Positions 7,071 to 31,410 of a DNA stretch of 31,410 nucleotides are shown here, piece after piece. Each line of letters starts with the position of its first letter. Positions within the stretch are counted from its first letter, which is position 1. The DNA comes from a virus, in the IMG/VR virus record IMGVR_UViG_3300028027_000159, positions 1 through 31,410 of that record, one strand, 5' to 3'. A program made the translations under genes and the position numbers. The notes beneath the pieces were generated by a model. It was given only the letters and a program-made list of their open reading frames with translations, ran no database searches and was not told the DNA's origin.

Positions 7071-9275
7071 ATGGCAAACACAATAGACTTCAATGTAGAC
7101 AGTAACGCGATGACCGTTCTCAATCAGACGGCTACGGCTGCTGACGGTGCTGCAAAAGGTATTAAGACATTGAAGGCGCAATACGCCGACTTAAAAAAGC
7201 AACAAGACCAATTCGACCCAGGGACTGAAAAGTTCAATCAGCTCTCTCAAAAGATGGGTGAGCTTAAGGATAGAATGAACGACGCTGCGGATGCAGTAAA
7301 AGGAAACACGGGGCCTGCGATTGAAGGAATGAGCGCGACGTTTGGAATCATGGGGCAACAGTTAGGCAACCTTGACTTCGAAGGACTAACGCAATCGATA
7401 GGAACGTTTAGCGCAAATCTTTCGCGCATTGATCCTAAAGCAATGATGGGTTCACTTAAAGCTATGTTAGCTGCGGGTGTTCAAGGTTTCAAAGCGTTGG
7501 GAAATGTGATTAAGCAAAACCCTATCTTTATTTTAGTGGGTGTAATTATTGGAATTATTGCATACTGGAAAGAGTTGAGCGACTTAGTTAGTGGAAAGAA
7601 GGGAATGTTGGAAAGTCTTAACAAACAAGCGGACGCATTAAAAACACAGGAACAATCGTTAACGCGTCAACTAGCATTACAAAAAGCGTTAGGCGAAGGC
7701 GCGGCAGCAATTTTAAGGACTGAACTAGATATGCTTGCAAACAAACAAAGGCAAGCGGAAGTCGCAATGGAAATAGCGGTTCTTGAGGACGATAAAGTGA
7801 AGTTTTTAGAAGCGCAACAACAACAGTTGACCGCAATTAACGACGTGGAAATGCGTCGAATAAAAATACATAAAGACGCGCAATCATTACTTGATAAAAT
7901 ACGCGCGGGTAAAGATGATGAATACAATAAACAACTTCTGCAAAATCAAGCGTTTAGTGAATACAAAGCGCGCACGGAAGAACTCGGTGTAGAGCAGCAA
8001 AGAAATAACGAAAGAGCAAGACAAGTCAACAACGAAATTGCAGACGCTCAAAGAAACGGCAACAAGGCGTTGGAAGAAAAGTTAATGTTAGAAAAACAAT
8101 CTTTGTACAATCAGAATGTTTCCATTCAATCGAACAAAGACGAAATATGGAACGCAGGAATGGCTGCGAAATCAGAAGTCAAGACGGAGAAAGAATTAGA
8201 GAGAATAGCAGCAAGCAAAGCGGCATCAGCAAAAAGAAAGAGCGACGCAGAAGCGGCAAGTAAAAAGTTAGCCGACGACATTCTTTCAATTGAGCAGCGC
8301 ATGGTTGAAGTTCAACGTTCTTTGATGGCTGAAAAGGATCGTGAGATTTTACTATTACAAGAAAAGCAAGCGCAAGAATTAAAGACATACGAGAAAGGAA
8401 AAAAGAGCGCGGAAGATTTGGCTAAACTAAAAACTTCACACGCTACTGAATTAAAAATTCTAACGGATAAGTACGACAAAGAAGCGCAAGAAAAAGAAGC
8501 TGAAAAGTTAGCAAAAGAAAAGGAAGCAGCGCAAGAAAGATTAAAAGAAAAACAGCAAGAACTAATTGACTTGCAAGCCATTATTGACACGGCAGACGAA
8601 AGTAATTTTCAATCTACATTATCGCAACAGCAACGCGATTTAATGGCTTCGCAAGATTACTACTTCAATCTAATTTCACAAGCGGAAACGGCAGGCTTAG
8701 ACACCGCAGCATTGATTGAAGAACAAGGACGCAAAGAGAATGAAATAAAAGACAAGTACCGCAAAGAAGACGAAGCTAAACAACAAGCAACGCAAGATTT
8801 TAGATTGAAGCAATTAGGCGAATCATTCGCAGCACTTGGAGCGTTAAACGACGCGTTTACAAAGAAGGGACAACAGCAATCGAAGAAACAATTTCAGATT
8901 CAAAAAGCGTTGAATCTCGCGTCGGCTGTAGTCGATACTTACGGCGGTATCAATAAAGCGTTAAACGACAAGACAATGCCTTCAACAACGGCGCGTATTA
9001 TTCAAGCGTCAATCGTGGGTGCAATGGGGTTAGCTAACGTAATAAAAATATCAAAGACGGAATATGGAAACGCAAGCGCACCTTCGGGAACGAACATGAG
9101 CGCGGGCGGTGGTGGCGACGGCGGAACAACAGCTCCTTCGCCTGCGAACTTCGCCTTCTTGCAGAACCAACCCAACCAACAACCACCCCTTCAGGCTTAC
9201 GTCGTTGGAACGCAGGTGTCGAGCAACTTAGAAGCACAACAATTAATTCAAAACCAATCACGATTAGGAGGATAA
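7071..9275 (+). CDS. Tape measure protein
   Basis: A 734-residue protein with the make-up of a siphophage tape measure. It has an N-terminal alpha-helical part with Ala/Lys/Gln-rich coiled coil and one hydrophobic segment around residues 148-168 (NPIFILVGVIIGIIAYWKEL). Long coiled-coil stretches at about 180-350 and 370-510 follow (AEKLAKEKEAAQERLKEKQQ). A conserved-looking C-terminal region (SKKQFQIQKALNLASAVVDT, then ASIVGAMGLANVIKI) ends in a Gly/Ser/Pro/Gln-rich tail. Tape measures set tail length and help DNA enter the cell. The gene lies after the distal tail genes and before the prohead protease, an order opposite to that of most siphophages. Confidence 0.9.
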   Translation: MANTIDFNVDSNAMTVLNQTATAADGAAKGIKTLKAQYADLKKQQDQFDPGTEKFNQLSQKMGELKDRMNDAADAVKGNTGPAIEGMSATFGIMGQQLGNLDFEGLTQSIGTFSANLSRIDPKAMMGSLKAMLAAGVQGFKALGNVIKQNPIFILVGVIIGIIAYWKELSDLVSGKKGMLESLNKQADALKTQEQSLTRQLALQKALGEGAAAILRTELDMLANKQRQAEVAMEIAVLEDDKVKFLEAQQQQLTAINDVEMRRIKIHKDAQSLLDKIRAGKDDEYNKQLLQNQAFSEYKARTEELGVEQQRNNERARQVNNEIADAQRNGNKALEEKLMLEKQSLYNQNVSIQSNKDEIWNAGMAAKSEVKTEKELERIAASKAASAKRKSDAEAASKKLADDILSIEQRMVEVQRSLMAEKDREILLLQEKQAQELKTYEKGKKSAEDLAKLKTSHATELKILTDKYDKEAQEKEAEKLAKEKEAAQERLKEKQQELIDLQAIIDTADESNFQSTLSQQQRDLMASQDYYFNLISQAETAGLDTAALIEEQGRKENEIKDKYRKEDEAKQQATQDFRLKQLGESFAALGALNDAFTKKGQQQSKKQFQIQKALNLASAVVDTYGGINKALNDKTMPSTTARIIQASIVGAMGLANVIKISKTEYGNASAPSGTNMSAGGGGDGGTTAPSPANFAFLQNQPNQQPPLQAYVVGTQVSSNLEAQQLIQNQSRLGG

Positions 9276-12333: not shown

Positions 12334-12717
12334 ATGGTATACCTAAACACAAACACAGCGAATCAATATGCGTATCTTTCGTTAGACGAAGGACGTGCCT
12401 ATTTCAACGTTGCCTTTACTCATTACCTTCTTGTCATGACTTACGAAATGACAGGTGAACAATTAGCGCAAGTGGTCGAAGTAATAAACGAGAACGAACG
12501 CGTGACTAAAATAAGACTTACAACCGTTGGTTTGGTCGATGCAGGACGTTATCATTACGAAGTGTACGGGCAAAACAGCAGCAGCAATATAGACCCAACC
12601 AACGCTTCCGTCGTTGGATTGGTTGAAAAGAGTTTAATGATTCTTCAAGACGGAACAATTTTCTTCGACGTTTCTTCGCCAACGATTCCCGTTGACGTAA
12701 TTTATACAGGTGCATAA
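12334..12717 (+). CDS. Conserved-type phage structural protein of unknown role
   Basis: A 127-residue protein starting MVYLNTNTANQYAYLSLDEG after a purine-rich leader (AAAGGGAAAAGGGA) that could act as an unusually strong ribosome site for this genome. It is beta-rich with a YEVYGQNSSSN motif followed by NASVVGLVEKSLMIL. I have a memory of similar small proteins next to portal genes in Bacteroidota phages, but no assigned function. No cysteine, no membrane segment. It ends two bases before the portal ATG, so the two are probably co-translated; it could be a decoration or connector protein. Confidence 0.55.
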   Translation: MVYLNTNTANQYAYLSLDEGRAYFNVAFTHYLLVMTYEMTGEQLAQVVEVINENERVTKIRLTTVGLVDAGRYHYEVYGQNSSSNIDPTNASVVGLVEKSLMILQDGTIFFDVSSPTIPVDVIYTGA

Positions 12718-12718
12718 T

Positions 12719-14419
12719 ATGAGTAACATTCAATCAATAAATCTTTCAGCATACGAACCAGTTGAAGCAATCGAGAAAGAGAATCGCGCGGGTTGGATTG
12801 ACTACGGTTTCAACAATTTATTTCCTCAGCACCTAATCACGCTTTATTACAATAGTCCTATTCATAACGCGTTGACGAACTCAATTGCTTACATGATTGA
12901 AGGCAAAGGAACGGGTACAATTCTCGACAATGCTTTGCAAGGAATTGCGTTCGACTTAAAACTTCAAGGTTCATTTTGTGCTGAGGTGATATGGTCGTTA
13001 GACTTTACTCGCATTGTACAAATCAATCACTTGCCTTTCGAAAATTGCAGACTTGCATACGACAAAGAAGAAGACGACATTACAGGAATTTTCTATTCGA
13101 AAGATTGGGCTAATACACGAAGCAAAAAAGGAAAACCCGAATTTATTCCTGCGTTCAATCCGTCAATCGCGCAAGAACAACCACGACAAGTTATCTACGC
13201 ACACGGCATGATGGCAGGAAGTTCATACTACGCGAAGCCTGACTATTTCGGTGCGTTGAATTACGTTGAATTGTCTTATCAAATGGGAATGTACCACGTC
13301 AACAATATCTTGAATGGTTTATTCCCTTCGTTCATTATTAACTTCTTAAACGGTATTCCGCAGAAAGAAGAACGTGAAGCAATACGTCGCGAGTGGGAAA
13401 CAAGATTGAGCGGTGCAAGCAACGCGGGAAAGTTCTTAATGACATTTAATGAAGATCCTACACGCGCTCCACAAATAGAATCCTTTCCTTTATCGGACGC
13501 AGATAAACAATATCAGTTTTTATCAGAAGAAACAGCGAAGCAAATCATGGTCGGACACCGCGTTGTTTCGCCATTGATTCACGGCATACGCGACACGACA
13601 GGATTCGGTTCGAACAAAGACGAAATGGTTGTTGGTTTGGAGATATTTAACAACCAAGTTATTAAGCCATATCAAAGAATCATCGAGCGTGTCTTCACTC
13701 CGATTTTAGGAGAGATAAATATCGAAATGAATTCGCCATTTGACGACGAAGTAGTCGTTGTTCAACCAACGGTGCAAACTGCTGAATTAAAAAAAAAAGT
13801 AGTTGCTGCTGAAAACAAGATAAGCGCAGAAGATAGCGCGTTGTGGTTGGCTTATCTTAAAGAGAAAGCGGAATACGTCAACGAAGAAGAATGGGAGTTA
13901 ATTTCTGACGAAGAAGTAACTAATCCAGAAGCAGAAGAAAACTACCGCACCGAATTTATGAGTGTTCGCGGTTACGACAACCCCGACGAAGTAAGCAAAG
14001 CGTTAGACACTGGTCTTTATAAAGTTCGCTATTATTACTCAACAAATTTCACATACAAAGACGGCGAAATTGTAACGCGTGACTTCTGTCAAGAAATGGT
14101 TGCGCTATCAAAAGAAGGGGCGCTATTTCGTTACGAAGATATTCAACAAATGGAGAAAGACGGAGTCAACGATGCGTTTGCACCCGCAGGGGCATCACGA
14201 TATTCGGTCTGGAAATATAAGGGCGGAGTCTACTGCCGCCACGCTTTCTTTAGAAAAGTATTTGTACGCAAAAGAGAGAAAGGTCGCTTCCTTCCTAACG
14301 ACGGATTGAAAAACGATAGAGTTGTAACAGGTGGTGTTGCAAACGAACTATTTCCAAAAGGAATAGAAGCGGTTCGTCCTAACGATATGCCGAACAGAGC
14401 ATCATTAAAATATAAATAA
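12719..14419 (+). CDS. Portal protein with extra C-terminal domain
   Basis: The ATG at 12719 is preferred over an in-frame GTG at 12710 that would overlap the previous gene; it gives 566 residues. Residues 1-360 follow the portal pattern of Bacteroidota phages: NNLFPQHLITLYYNSPIHNA at the N-terminus, a wing/clip region (VIYAHGMMAGSSYY), the SGASNAGKFLMTF stretch and IMVGHRVVSPLIHGIRD before a final helix (IERVFTPILGEI). Portals form the dodecameric DNA gate that binds the terminase. After an acidic linker, residues ~420-540 form a separate domain (RYYYSTN, DFCQEMVAL, YRYEDIQQM-like FRYEDIQQM, YSVWKYKGGVYCRHAFFRKV) with Cys/His residues, not part of a basic portal. It resembles domains I recall at the ends of portal or minor head proteins. 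Confidence 0.8.
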   Translation: MSNIQSINLSAYEPVEAIEKENRAGWIDYGFNNLFPQHLITLYYNSPIHNALTNSIAYMIEGKGTGTILDNALQGIAFDLKLQGSFCAEVIWSLDFTRIVQINHLPFENCRLAYDKEEDDITGIFYSKDWANTRSKKGKPEFIPAFNPSIAQEQPRQVIYAHGMMAGSSYYAKPDYFGALNYVELSYQMGMYHVNNILNGLFPSFIINFLNGIPQKEEREAIRREWETRLSGASNAGKFLMTFNEDPTRAPQIESFPLSDADKQYQFLSEETAKQIMVGHRVVSPLIHGIRDTTGFGSNKDEMVVGLEIFNNQVIKPYQRIIERVFTPILGEINIEMNSPFDDEVVVVQPTVQTAELKKKVVAAENKISAEDSALWLAYLKEKAEYVNEEEWELISDEEVTNPEAEENYRTEFMSVRGYDNPDEVSKALDTGLYKVRYYYSTNFTYKDGEIVTRDFCQEMVALSKEGALFRYEDIQQMEKDGVNDAFAPAGASRYSVWKYKGGVYCRHAFFRKVFVRKREKGRFLPNDGLKNDRVVTGGVANELFPKGIEAVRPNDMPNRASLKYK

Positions 14420-18146: not shown

Positions 18147-19457
18147 TTATCCTACAACGTATTGTCCATAACTTGGATTAAGTTCAAAGTACATACGCAT
18201 CATGACAGCGTCGGCAACGTCAGGTGAAATACCTTCGCGGTTCTTGATTACGTCCTTCGGTGTGACCTGCAACTTACCGTCCACGTCTGCGCGGTGTCGT
18301 TTAATCATTTCAAGTTCACGCACGATTTGTTCTTTGCGCGTACTGGATAGAATCGTTACTTTGTTTTCTTCAACGTACTGAGCCAATTTGTAGTAACATT
18401 CGCTTTTGAGATTTTGGTATTGTGGGTGTTTTGGTTTAGATCCGTTGACGAACCCGCGACATTTTAAGAAGTCAACGACACCACCACCCACTCCGTCTTC
18501 GTCACATACTACGTCTTGCAATAAAATTGAGTGTTGTTGACAGGTTAAACGAACTTTGTTGACGACTTCGTCCAACGCAGCACGATTGAGTTCAATTATG
18601 TCGATGATAGTTAGTCCTTCCCAAACGCAGATAATCGTTCTGTCCTTCCCAAAACGCGCTATGTCCGCTGTGATATATTTCTTTCCTTCATTGATTACTT
18701 CGTTGCGGAACATTCGCAATAAGTTCTCCGTGTTAAATAGTTTGTCGCTGTCGTCGTCGAACTCCCAATTGCCTTCGAGCAGACGTTTGCGGTCATACTC
18801 AGGCAGTCTTCTAAGAGATTCAATGTAAGCAACAGGAAGGAATGGATTGTCTTGCGGTAACGCTTGCACAAACGCGCGGTGTGAAGGTAGTTCGTTGCGG
18901 TTGTTCTTCATATAGAACTCGTTATACAACCAACCCTTCGCAGGATTGCAAGACAAGAAACCTTTGGGAATTAAACCGAACTCGTTCAACTTAAATCGGC
19001 AACGAGAGTGAACAATGCTTACCGCTTTTTCAGTTACTTCGGAACATTCATCTACGAAATAGTCTGTGATTTCAAGCGACCCTAATGAATTATAGTTCAC
19101 ATCTGAGGGATAAGCCTGCAAGTCTTTTAAGACAATTTCGCTTCCGTTGAAGAACTTAATTATGTTCGATTGTCCGTTGAATGTGTAGTGTTTGTTTGCT
19201 ATCAATCCAAACTCCTCAGCCGTTTCGAAGAACGTATTTAACGTTGTCTTTTTTAAGTTATCTAACTTTGCACGACCGATTAAAGAACGCGTTCCAGCGT
19301 ATTTCAAACGACGCTGAATCTGCCACATACAACCGAACTTCGTCTTGCCACCGCCTGCCGCGCCACCGTATAACAACTGTTCAACGATGCTATCGGTGTT
19401 CAAGTAGTTCAACGCTTCAATCTGACGCGGCAGGTATGTCGGTTTATATGGTTGCAT
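18147..19457 (-). CDS. terL: Terminase large subunit
   Basis: A 436-residue protein with both terminase domains. The ATPase domain has Walker A at residues 31-39 (GGAAGGGKT), Walker B at 135-138 (VDEC) and the SCNPAKGWLYNEF coupling motif at ~169-181. The nuclease domain has the RNase H-fold acidic residues Asp265 (YITADIARFGKDRT), a DEDG cluster at 319-322, and Asp416 (SPDVADAVMM). It pumps DNA through the portal and cuts concatemers. Unusually it is on the minus strand among early genes, while portal and small terminase are on the plus strand. Its start overlaps the preceding stop (TAATG). Confidence 0.95.
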   Translation of the reverse strand: MQPYKPTYLPRQIEALNYLNTDSIVEQLLYGGAAGGGKTKFGCMWQIQRRLKYAGTRSLIGRAKLDNLKKTTLNTFFETAEEFGLIANKHYTFNGQSNIIKFFNGSEIVLKDLQAYPSDVNYNSLGSLEITDYFVDECSEVTEKAVSIVHSRCRFKLNEFGLIPKGFLSCNPAKGWLYNEFYMKNNRNELPSHRAFVQALPQDNPFLPVAYIESLRRLPEYDRKRLLEGNWEFDDDSDKLFNTENLLRMFRNEVINEGKKYITADIARFGKDRTIICVWEGLTIIDIIELNRAALDEVVNKVRLTCQQHSILLQDVVCDEDGVGGGVVDFLKCRGFVNGSKPKHPQYQNLKSECYYKLAQYVEENKVTILSSTRKEQIVRELEMIKRHRADVDGKLQVTPKDVIKNREGISPDVADAVMMRMYFELNPSYGQYVVG

Positions 19458-19675
19458 TATTTCACATTTATATTTTTCACAACTTTAATTTTCGGCTTCG
19501 TAAAGTTTTTTAATATGTAAAATTCTGCTTGTTCAATAGTTTCAAAAGACATGTCAACGCACATTCCAGAGAATTTATAAATGTATTCAGTAATCCAACC
19601 ACACCACTTTTTGCGTTGCACCTTGTATATCGTTTGACCGCAATGTTCTTGCGAAATAATTCTTAATTTATTCAT
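19457..19675 (-). CDS. Small hypothetical protein (72 aa) between methyltransferase and terL
   Basis: The product begins MNKLRIISQEHCGQTIYKVQ. It has a WCGWITEYIYKF segment and a helix ending ETIEQAEFYILKNF, giving an alpha/beta look rich in aromatic residues and lysine. It is coupled on both sides by TAATG overlaps, so it is surely translated with its neighbours. The last part resembles small phage proteins in which a 'TxxEAExFI' helix follows a beta sheet. No function assigned. Confidence 0.6.
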   Translation of the reverse strand: MNKLRIISQEHCGQTIYKVQRKKWCGWITEYIYKFSGMCVDMSFETIEQAEFYILKNFTKPKIKVVKNINVK

Positions 19676-20748
19676 TAAAATAGTTTTAGTTGTAGTTTTT
19701 CTAACCTGTCCATTTCAGCAATTACTTTGAAAATCTCATAAGCAACTTGCGGAACGATAGCATTTCCATAACCCTTTATAGATTCTTGTCTCCACTTTGA
19801 AAAGGTAATTCCGTCCAGTTCGGTGGGAAGCCCATCATCTCCGCCACAAATGGGGGATTGAGATGGGAACGTGTCCCAAAAGCCTCGTTTATTTGACTGC
19901 CTAAATCGTCCCCTTTCCAGTTCTCCGTTTTCCAATGCATGTTCTTGTCCGATGTTCTTGGTGTATGTAGCAGTCCCATACTCAACATTCTCGGCAATGT
20001 CATTGAGTGCATTGATCCCTCTTTCACTTGTGTTGATTTCATTGTCGCACTCGCGTTTGTACTGTCGAATACTGTCGGAGTTGGTAGCATCCCTTGAATT
20101 AACTTCGCTTGTAGACATGTTCCGCCTTGTTTGAATTGAGTGTTCTGCTGATGCGTTGTTGGAGTTGGTAGCAGTCCCATACTCGCTTTCCCACTCAGCA
20201 TTGATGCTGTTCCGTCTAACCTTTTCTGACCTTTCCAATCTCCTGCTATTGGAGTAGGAAGCATTGTAAGCGACGAACCAAACTCTATCTCTTCTATGTG
20301 GCGCACCGACGGCACAAGCTGGCAATAGTATCGGTTGTACTTCGTACCCTTGAGCTTCCAGGTCAGCGCACACTTCTTCGAAGACCACTCCCCCATTCCA
20401 ATTAGTAAGTCCACGAACGTTTTCGCCCACAACGTAGGTTGGCTTAATCTCTGAAATGACTCGGAGCATGTGCGGCCAGAGGTGTCGCTCGTCCTCTTTC
20501 CCAAGTCGCTTACCTGCGCTTGAGTATGGTTGACAAGGAAACCCTCCTGTGAGTATGTCAATTGTTCCTCTGTGAATAGAGAAATCTGTCTTTGTGATGT
20601 CTTCATAACTTATTGAGTTTGGAAAATAATGACTTAAAACTTTGCGTGGAAATGGCATCCATTCACAATGAAACGTGTTGTTCCATCCCATCCATTCAGC
20701 GGCTAAATCAAATCCACCGATACCGCTAAACAACGATCCGTGATTCAT
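19675..20748 (-). CDS. DNA (cytosine-5) methyltransferase
   Basis: A 357-residue C5-methyltransferase with the canonical motifs in order: I (LFSGIGGFD, 6-14), IV with the catalytic Cys72 (GGFPCQPYSSAG), VI (ENV, 109-111), VIII (HRRDRVW, 151-157) and X (GNAIVPQVA, 328-336). Residues ~165-290, the target-recognition region, are unusually Asn/Ser/Arg/Glu-rich and low in complexity. It methylates cytosine at C5, most likely to protect phage DNA from host restriction; no cognate nuclease is adjacent. The target sequence cannot be read from the protein. A second long frame runs inside it on the same strand. Confidence 0.92.
   Translation of the reverse strand: MNHGSLFSGIGGFDLAAEWMGWNNTFHCEWMPFPRKVLSHYFPNSISYEDITKTDFSIHRGTIDILTGGFPCQPYSSAGKRLGKEDERHLWPHMLRVISEIKPTYVVGENVRGLTNWNGGVVFEEVCADLEAQGYEVQPILLPACAVGAPHRRDRVWFVAYNASYSNSRRLERSEKVRRNSINAEWESEYGTATNSNNASAEHSIQTRRNMSTSEVNSRDATNSDSIRQYKRECDNEINTSERGINALNDIAENVEYGTATYTKNIGQEHALENGELERGRFRQSNKRGFWDTFPSQSPICGGDDGLPTELDGITFSKWRQESIKGYGNAIVPQVAYEIFKVIAEMDRLEKLQLKLF
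19776..20606 (-). CDS. Overprinted ORF (276 aa) inside the methyltransferase gene
   Basis: This frame is shifted +1 relative to the methyltransferase, on the same strand, and is fully nested within it (about residues 48-324 of the methyltransferase). It has an ATG start (MKTSQRQISLFTEEQLTYSQ) and protein-like composition. It contains TLWAKTFVDLLIGMGEWSSK, KCALTWKLKGTKYNRYYCQL, several LPTP repeats (MLPTPIAGDWKG, LLPTPTTHQQN, MLPTPTVFDS) and ends with LNPPFVAEMMGFPPNWTELP. I recall LPTP-rich proteins with a similar C-terminal motif associated with phage methyltransferases, so it may be a real second product. It could also be a by-product of the biased target-recognition region. No start signal is visible that would separate these. 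Confidence 0.4.
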   Translation of the reverse strand: MKTSQRQISLFTEEQLTYSQEGFLVNHTQAQVSDLGKRTSDTSGRTCSESFQRLSQPTLWAKTFVDLLIGMGEWSSKKCALTWKLKGTKYNRYYCQLVPSVRHIEEIEFGSSLTMLPTPIAGDWKGQKRLDGTASMLSGKASMGLLPTPTTHQQNTQFKQGGTCLQAKLIQGMLPTPTVFDSTNASATMKSTQVKEGSMHSMTLPRMLSMGLLHTPRTSDKNMHWKTENWKGDDLGSQINEAFGTRSHLNPPFVAEMMGFPPNWTELPFQSGDKNL

Positions 20749-30523: not shown

Positions 30524-31108
30524 ATGAGCATCAAAGTAAGTATCCCCGCCGACTATTCTTCGATTAGCGTCAAGCAATACGTTGACTATCACGCAGCGAA
30601 GAACGACATAGACAAGTTGGTGTCAATTAGTAACCTACTGAAGGAACAAGCCGAACAAATTCCTTTCCAACACTTGCCGACCTTAATACAAGCGTTCGAA
30701 GAAACATTGAAGAACGAATCAGCGAAGTTCTTCGAAACGATTACTATCAAAGATAAAGACTTTGGTTTTATTCCCGACCTGTATTCTATTTCAATGGGTG
30801 AATACGCGGACATTTCAACGTGGGCATCCGACGTGTCAACGAACATGGTTAAGATAATGGGAACGCTTTACAGACCTATTGACAAACGCGTTGGAAAAAA
30901 GTACACAATCGTACCTCACAACAAACAAAACAGAGAGTTAGTTGAAGGGTACGTTGAGCAGATGACACTCGAACAATTCAATGGTGCGCTGCTTTTTTTT
31001 TCGACTTTGCTAGCCGAACTAAGCAACACTTCGCTAGATTATTTGGAGAACGAAGTGAAGAAGTTGACGACGGAATTGACGGAGCAATTGAAGACCGAGA
31101 AGGACTGA
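30524..31108 (+). CDS. Tail assembly chaperone, short (G-type) product
   Basis: The zero-frame product has 194 residues. It starts VSIPADYSSISVKQYVDYHA, a pattern of Bacteroidota phage tail-chaperone proteins ('IP...S.IS..QY..Y'), then PFQHLPTLIQAFEETLKNES and a helical C-terminal half (KKYTIVPHNKQNRELVEGYV, FNGALLFFSTLLAELS). These chaperones coat the tape measure during tail assembly and typically are made in two forms by frameshifting. The gene carries such a signal near its end. It is at the head of the late operon, far from the tape measure at 7071-9275. Confidence 0.65.
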   Translation: MSIKVSIPADYSSISVKQYVDYHAAKNDIDKLVSISNLLKEQAEQIPFQHLPTLIQAFEETLKNESAKFFETITIKDKDFGFIPDLYSISMGEYADISTWASDVSTNMVKIMGTLYRPIDKRVGKKYTIVPHNKQNRELVEGYVEQMTLEQFNGALLFFSTLLAELSNTSLDYLENEVKKLTTELTEQLKTEKD

Positions 31109-31284
31109 ATCAAGTCTTAGGACGCTACGGTTGGTATCACTTGTTCATGGAAGCCTGCGGTCGCGACATAACAAAGTTGGACGCAATTACGGAAAAATCA
31201 GCGTGGGAAATATTTACATTTATGACTTACTTAATCGATTACAACTATGTCCAACATTCAAAGCTACAACGCCTTAATAGATAG
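30524..31284 (+). CDS. Tail assembly chaperone, frameshifted (GT-type) product
   Basis: Reading the T-run at 30994-31000 with a -1 shift continues an open frame for 94 codons (31000-31284). That gives about 253 residues: FDFASRTKQHFARLFGERSE, GIDGAIEDREGLNQVLGRYG, then a compact domain (WYHLFMEACGRDITKLDAIT, EIFTFMTYLIDYNYVQHSKL). The domain has protein-like composition and no ATG for independent translation near its start. This is the classical G/GT arrangement of lambda-like and Bacteroidota phages. The extension overlaps the next gene start (31247) by 38 bases. The frame is seen; the recoding is inferred. Confidence 0.6.
30994..31037 (+). promoter_or_regulatory. Programmed -1 frameshift signal (slippery T-run and hairpin)
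   Basis: Nine T's at 30993-31001 contain the heptamer T TTT TTT in frame (30994-31000). After a 9-nt spacer a hairpin follows: CTAGC-c-GAA (31010-31018) with TTC-GCTAG (31030-31037), eight pairs and one bulge. Slippery site, spacer length and stem all fit the usual -1 signal. Confidence 0.7.
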
Positions 31285-31410
31285 ATTTCACGCCTTCGCG
31301 TCTGGTCACTTTATTCTCAAAAGATTTTCACACGGACAGATTGAAGTTTCCGACCTTGAAAAGTTTGGTGAATATCCGTTCATGCACGTCGTGCCTTCCA
31401 ACGTTAGCTA
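31247..31410 (+). CDS. 5' part of the neck domain-fibre gene (continues at base 1)
   Basis: The ATG at 31247 opens MSNIQSYNALIDRFHAFASG, then HFILKRFSHGQIEVSDLEKF and GEYPFMHVVPSNVS, with two bases left at the edge that complete a Tyr codon with base 1. 'YNALI.RF..FA..H......F..G......' is the opening of tail-completion/neck proteins in Bacteroidota phages. The GT product overlaps this start by 38 bases. See the entry at 1-2344 for the remaining domains. Confidence 0.8.
   Translation, partial: MSNIQSYNALIDRFHAFASGHFILKRFSHGQIEVSDLEKFGEYPFMHVVPSNVS

Follow-up and report, generated by a model that had tools for sequence, protein, structure and literature searches.

A conserved nine-T run joins two coding frames in a predicted tail-chaperone gene pair of a Bacteroidota-type phage family

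Results and discussion

The virus record IMGVR_UViG_3300028027_000159 of IMG/VR (31410 bases, analysed over its full length and hereafter called the window) probably encodes a G/GT-type gene pair, in which a short protein (G) and a minority fusion product (GT) would both be made from one locus by way of a run of nine T's. Comparative genomics of related loci shows that both frames are coding, that the transition takes place at the T run, that the shift is -1 and that the arrangement is kept throughout the family. Most expression would yield G (194 aa), and in a minority an additional U would enter the transcript at the nine-T run, or the ribosome would step back one nucleotide, to give GT, consisting of the first 159 residues of G followed by 94 residues of the T region. 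The standing of GT as the minority product is one that we infer from the sequence architecture. Tail-chaperone function of the pair, predicted from this architecture and from the operon, is likely; G would bind the tape measure protein and T would recruit the tube protein, the roles described for lambda G and GT (PMC5009743).

Coding capacity of the two frames

The G open reading frame (ORF) extends over 30524-31108 on the + strand and encodes 194 aa, of which the pre-shift residues 1-159 form a conserved domain that was modelled with AlphaFold2 at a mean pLDDT of 93 and a pTM of 0.84. Across 66 unique close sequences, this pre-shift part of G had a dN/dS of 0.072. The nine-T run occupies 30993-31001 (+) and, as the initial annotation had stated, contains a T TTT TTT heptamer in phase with G at 30994-31000. 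The -1 frame is then open for 94 codons (31000-31281), again in agreement with that annotation, and closes with a stop codon at 31282-31284. This T region (31000-31284, +) carries a YGWY motif and forms the C-terminal part of a predicted GT of 253 aa; its structure was predicted with low confidence (pLDDT 58). PHROGs stores G and the relatives' counterpart of T as two families of unknown function, phrog_32199 and phrog_38404 respectively.

Between the stop codon of G and the next start codon (ATG 31247), the T-only stretch at 31109-31246 (+) holds no other gene, and the initial annotation had argued that it would otherwise be an unexplained gap. In the same 66 unique close sequences, the -1 frame of this stretch had a dN/dS of 0.047, against values of 2.2 and 2.9 for the two alternative frames, and a low value in the -1 frame alone indicates that the stretch is coding rather than a gap. 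Conserved F and R residues occur in the -1 frame directly 3' of the run, and complete T frames, all in the -1 frame and of 75-95 aa, were found in 385 of 385 loci. When 398 related loci were compared, the GWY-type motif of T was in frame with G in none, and no homologue among them encoded the extension in frame, the case that had been named as refuting the proposal. The programmed -1 transition originally proposed, yielding G and a fused GT, is thus upheld by a conserved site, by purifying selection and by the lack of an in-frame fusion across these 398 loci.

The Nonlabens phages P12024L and P12024S carry true relatives of the pair (genes 40/41 and 38/39), with T9 and a T region in the -1 frame, yet their records annotate two separate hypothetical proteins and leave the shift unmarked. 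Following those records (P12024L_41), T could be an independent gene with its own start, the T run being incidental. P12024L does have an ATG before its WGWY motif, from which the record calls a separate gene of 55 aa, and a GTG, TTG or ATG lies between run and motif in 49 of 81 close relatives. However, such a start is missing between run and motif in the window and in the other 32 of the 81 close relatives, the -1 frame is already conserved at the F and R residues immediately after the run, and an independent gene leaves the invariance of T9 unexplained; we regard this explanation as very improbable. A single gene with two products would explain the mis-annotated Nonlabens gene pair, and would join phrog_32199 and phrog_38404 as one gene with two products, for which a likely function can now be given.

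Conservation of the nine-T run

No other T run of at least 8 occurs on the + strand of the window, and dinucleotide shuffles expect ~20 such matches over both strands. Every one of 81 close relatives carries the T9 run unchanged, and so do, at ~30% identity, the Nonlabens phages P12024L and P12024S. Among 63 loci found with the Nonlabens protein, the run was 9 in all except one (L092, with 10), and T9 recurred in 80 loci around L109 and in further locus sets. Over the 398 related loci, which form 32 clusters when grouped at 60% identity (52 at 80%) and include some contigs counted twice, run length was 9 in 389, 10 in eight and 12 in one, with none shorter. Comparison of the slippery site in related phages, which had been suggested as a check at the outset, found at least 9 T's at 398 of 398 loci, and the in-phase T TTT TTT was present at all 398.

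In 32 of 32 clusters, a T ended the codon that precedes the two F codons (log10 P about -17 from codon usage), and TTT was used for the first of these F codons, likewise in all 32 (log10 P about -4.8). Wobble variation along G averaged ~0.2-0.5 per codon in close relatives, and was zero in the codons of the run. The invariance of T9 and these codon-usage P values together place conservation of the site beyond chance. Distant homologues in two bacterial genomes of the Flavobacterium class (Bacteroidota; L415 and L416) likewise have T9, followed by a -1 extension in which a YGW motif occurs, the L416 protein sharing 14% identity with that of the window; matches were few when 395 genomes from that class and 395 from the phylum were scanned. 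In 2 of 12 virus genomes scanned, T9 was unique genome-wide to the frame-transition site.

Runs of 10 or 12 T's with an extra junction codon occur in one clade (L356, L367, L368, L385 and L383), and a contig carrying the family (L243) was binned within an Epsilonproteobacteria MAG, where it is likely a misbinned phage contig or else points to a broader host range.

Signals around the transition site

The initial annotation had proposed an eight-pair hairpin at 31010-31037 (+), set 9 nt beyond the slippery site, as the stimulator of frameshifting. The spacer to this stem was confirmed and the hairpin can be drawn in the window, but as a stimulator it was rejected, being complete in no more than 5 of the 81 close relatives, with 4-5 pairs left in most; it is unconserved and probably non-functional. 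Folding of the window segment gave a z of -1.3 and preferred stems other than the eight-pair hairpin. A second stem at 31027-31057, ~26 nt downstream, recurs in close relatives and was also set aside, as it is too distant and is absent across clusters. No downstream RNA structure was detected across the 32 diverse clusters (mean folding z about 0), and inspection by eye of the upstream 30 nt revealed no Shine-Dalgarno-like or other common element. Given that the P2 family also shifts without such structure, the missing hairpin is no argument against ribosomal shifting.

Products of a slip in the opposite direction would end within a few codons, at a +1-frame TAG in the window (31011-31013, +), and a +1-frame stop fell within 0-3 codons after the run in 29 of 32 clusters. 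This early stop was discarded as evidence of slippage, as it follows from dual coding (F-R in one frame, L in the other).

Slippage by RNA polymerase or by the ribosome

Run-length conservation tips a finely balanced judgement slightly towards slipping of the host RNA polymerase, rather than of the ribosome, at the T run; a mixture of polymerase and ribosomal slippage appears improbable. A credible alternative, of somewhat less than even probability, is that the ribosome alone shifts by -1 at T TTT TTT, as happens in known G/GT pairs, with the flanking T's retained through a need for hydrophobic residues in both frames. The in-phase heptamer at all 398 loci fits this alternative, as does the description of known G/GT shifts (-1, -2 or +1) as ribosomal (PMC5009743), and in the P2 family, where no downstream structure is detectable, T TTT TTG serves as the shift site. 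Any run of 9, however, includes an in-phase heptamer, so that the heptamer comes automatically with the run and is not independent evidence; the same coincidence counts against the polymerase. Ribosomal shifting also has to accommodate a run that is never 7 or 8, a length that stays constant through changes of phase, and a last heptamer base at which C does not occur, even though in most clades a C there would leave both proteins unchanged.

As a rule, the heptamer is flanked by one additional T on either side. These flanking T's were rejected as proof of length selection by themselves, since a demand for hydrophobic residues in the two frames would preserve them as well, and this ambiguity led us to a phase-change test. 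L243 (TTT TTT TTT CTG) has gained a T on the 5' side and lost the one on the 3' side, and L297 (AGT TTT TTT TTG) and L416 (ACT TTT TTT TTG) show the reverse, a 3' gain with a 5' loss; the length is still 9 in all three. When the pairing of 5' and 3' extra T's was permuted, all runs were at least 9 in 0.07% of permutations with 34 clusters (P 0.0007) and in 0.02% with 54 (P 0.0002), in a test that is post hoc and depends on these three lineages. Run length is kept despite the change of phase, which the heptamer alone would not need, and the evidence leans to RNA polymerase on this ground.

The P2 E/E' gene and seven relatives served as a control, with sites of T TTT TTG or T TTT TTT in runs of 6-7 T's, and GGGAAAG in a Mannheimia relative. 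That this family, whose -1 shift is annotated as translational, keeps 6-7 T's was counted for transcriptional slippage in the phages studied here. Two published findings were counted on the same side: a length of ~9 A or T is that at which coding regions of many bacteria avoid slippage (PMC1088944), and U insertion by E. coli RNA polymerase at T7 and T8 reaches 5 and 10% of the level of a control reporter (PMC6260861). Against the polymerase, slipping by the E. coli enzyme sets in at runs as short as these 7-8 T's. Further points on that side are that all T regions lie in the -1 frame only, that phase was altered in only three lineages, and that the flanking T's were possibly retained for hydrophobic residues.

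Bacterial transcriptional slippage in Thermus dnaX, Shigella spa13 and mxiE and IS elements (PMC5009743, PMC1088944) resembles the present case in that a homopolymer of ~9 A or T lets one gene give two products, and differs in that slippage is here deduced solely from run-length conservation. The reviewed literature on transcriptional slippage covers type III secretion and IS elements, not tail chaperones, and no report of it for tail chaperones was found in the literature searched, a body from which subscription papers were mostly absent. That a Bacteroidota-type phage family makes its tail-chaperone pair through RNA polymerase slippage at a length-selected T9 is, on the sequence comparisons, plausible at just short of even probability. 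If RNA polymerase does slip, tail-length control in window-type phages would rest on transcription fidelity.

Comparison with known tail chaperones

The pair resembles lambda G/GT in having a short G and a GT, predicted to be rarer, that arises through a -1 shift late in the G gene, close to its 3' end, in the similar sizes of the products and in the strand shared with tail genes. It differs in its site, which is T9 here and a GGGAAAG-type heptamer in lambda, in having no detectable sequence similarity and in its position: several genes, spanning ~7 kb, separate G from the tape measure gene downstream, whereas the lambda pair adjoins that gene. With P2 E/E+E' it shares the -1 shift, a T-rich in-phase heptamer and the lack of a downstream hairpin signal; in the P2 family, by contrast, the run is 6-7 T's and the pair sits beside the tape measure gene, and there is no profile similarity of T to E'.

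Profile comparison detected no homology of G to lambda G, or of T to lambda T or P2 E', and the pair had no Pfam match. Neither a solved structure nor a PDB fold match was found for G, including in a repeated search, and in a viral structure library the G model matched only uncharacterized phage proteins above chance. Weak matches to phrog_166 ('tail protein') were obtained for 13 of 48 members. Two candidate relatives were dismissed, namely a Flavobacterium phage 6H protein (TM about 0.4, with no matching -1 site) and T4 gp26/gp51, which belong to another PHROG.

Genomic context and predicted function

The next gene starts at 31247-31410 (+), overlapping the end of T by 38 nt, and continues at 2-2344 of the window. 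The contig is circularly permuted, and 12 codons (~36 nt) are absent at the record ends compared with relatives. In other clades G/GT is followed by a ~155 aa gene, to which the N-terminus of this gene is homologous (hhalign probability 98%, E 2e-14). Where the initial annotation had described the pair as joined to the start of a neck-fibre gene, that start corresponds to the conserved ~155 aa gene, which is fused to the fibre in the window.

A weak match to a tape measure protein lies at 7071-9275 (+), ~7 kb downstream of the pair on the circular map. The initial annotation had remarked on the distance to the tape measure; the separation is a general family trait and not peculiar to this phage, with the tape measure ~5-9 kb and several genes from G/GT, on the same strand and in the same block, in seven mapped genomes. 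A place immediately before the tape measure gene is frequent among G/GT chaperone pairs but does not strictly define them. In these seven genomes, drawn from different clades, G/GT is followed by the ~155 aa gene, mostly by a ~160-190 aa gene, and by large tail genes, then by a tape-measure-sized gene, protease, capsid and portal. Gene roles were assigned by PHROG and Pfam in two genomes (G001 and G004) and the window, and by size and order in the others; the ~160-190 aa gene was Neck1-like in two genomes scanned. In all seven and in the window, the pair heads the block toward the tape measure, protease, capsid and portal genes. Its position as the first element of the structural block, together with the G/GT layout, favours a tail chaperone; the chaperone reading proposed initially thus finds support in layout and position but none in homology to lambda or P2 chaperones.

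The pair could be real and have another role, for example in neck or connector assembly, given its proximity to terminase and neck-like genes. In the non-window clades mapped, G/GT directly follows a terminase-sized gene on the same strand, taken as the large terminase; the ~155 aa gene and the Neck1-like gene come next, with the tape measure several genes later, and homology to known chaperones was not found. Nevertheless, a short G accompanied by a rarer, -1-shifted GT is the hallmark arrangement of tail chaperones, the sizes of 194 and 253 aa are similar to those of lambda, and the weak matches of 13 of the 48 members are to a PHROG named tail protein. The window also contains no other candidate frameshift pair beside the tape measure gene, and we consider a role other than tail chaperone unlikely.

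Further features of the window were noted outside the pair. The large terminase gene (18147-19457) is on the - strand and runs counter to the structural genes. A run of ten A's at 13789-13798, inside the portal gene (12710-14419, +), is a second possibly slippage-prone coding homopolymer. On the - strand, 19776-20606 lies inside 19675-20748, giving two long overlapping same-strand frames that are both protein-like, one resembling a cytosine methyltransferase and the other a protein of 276 aa with LLPTPT and MGFPPNW motifs.
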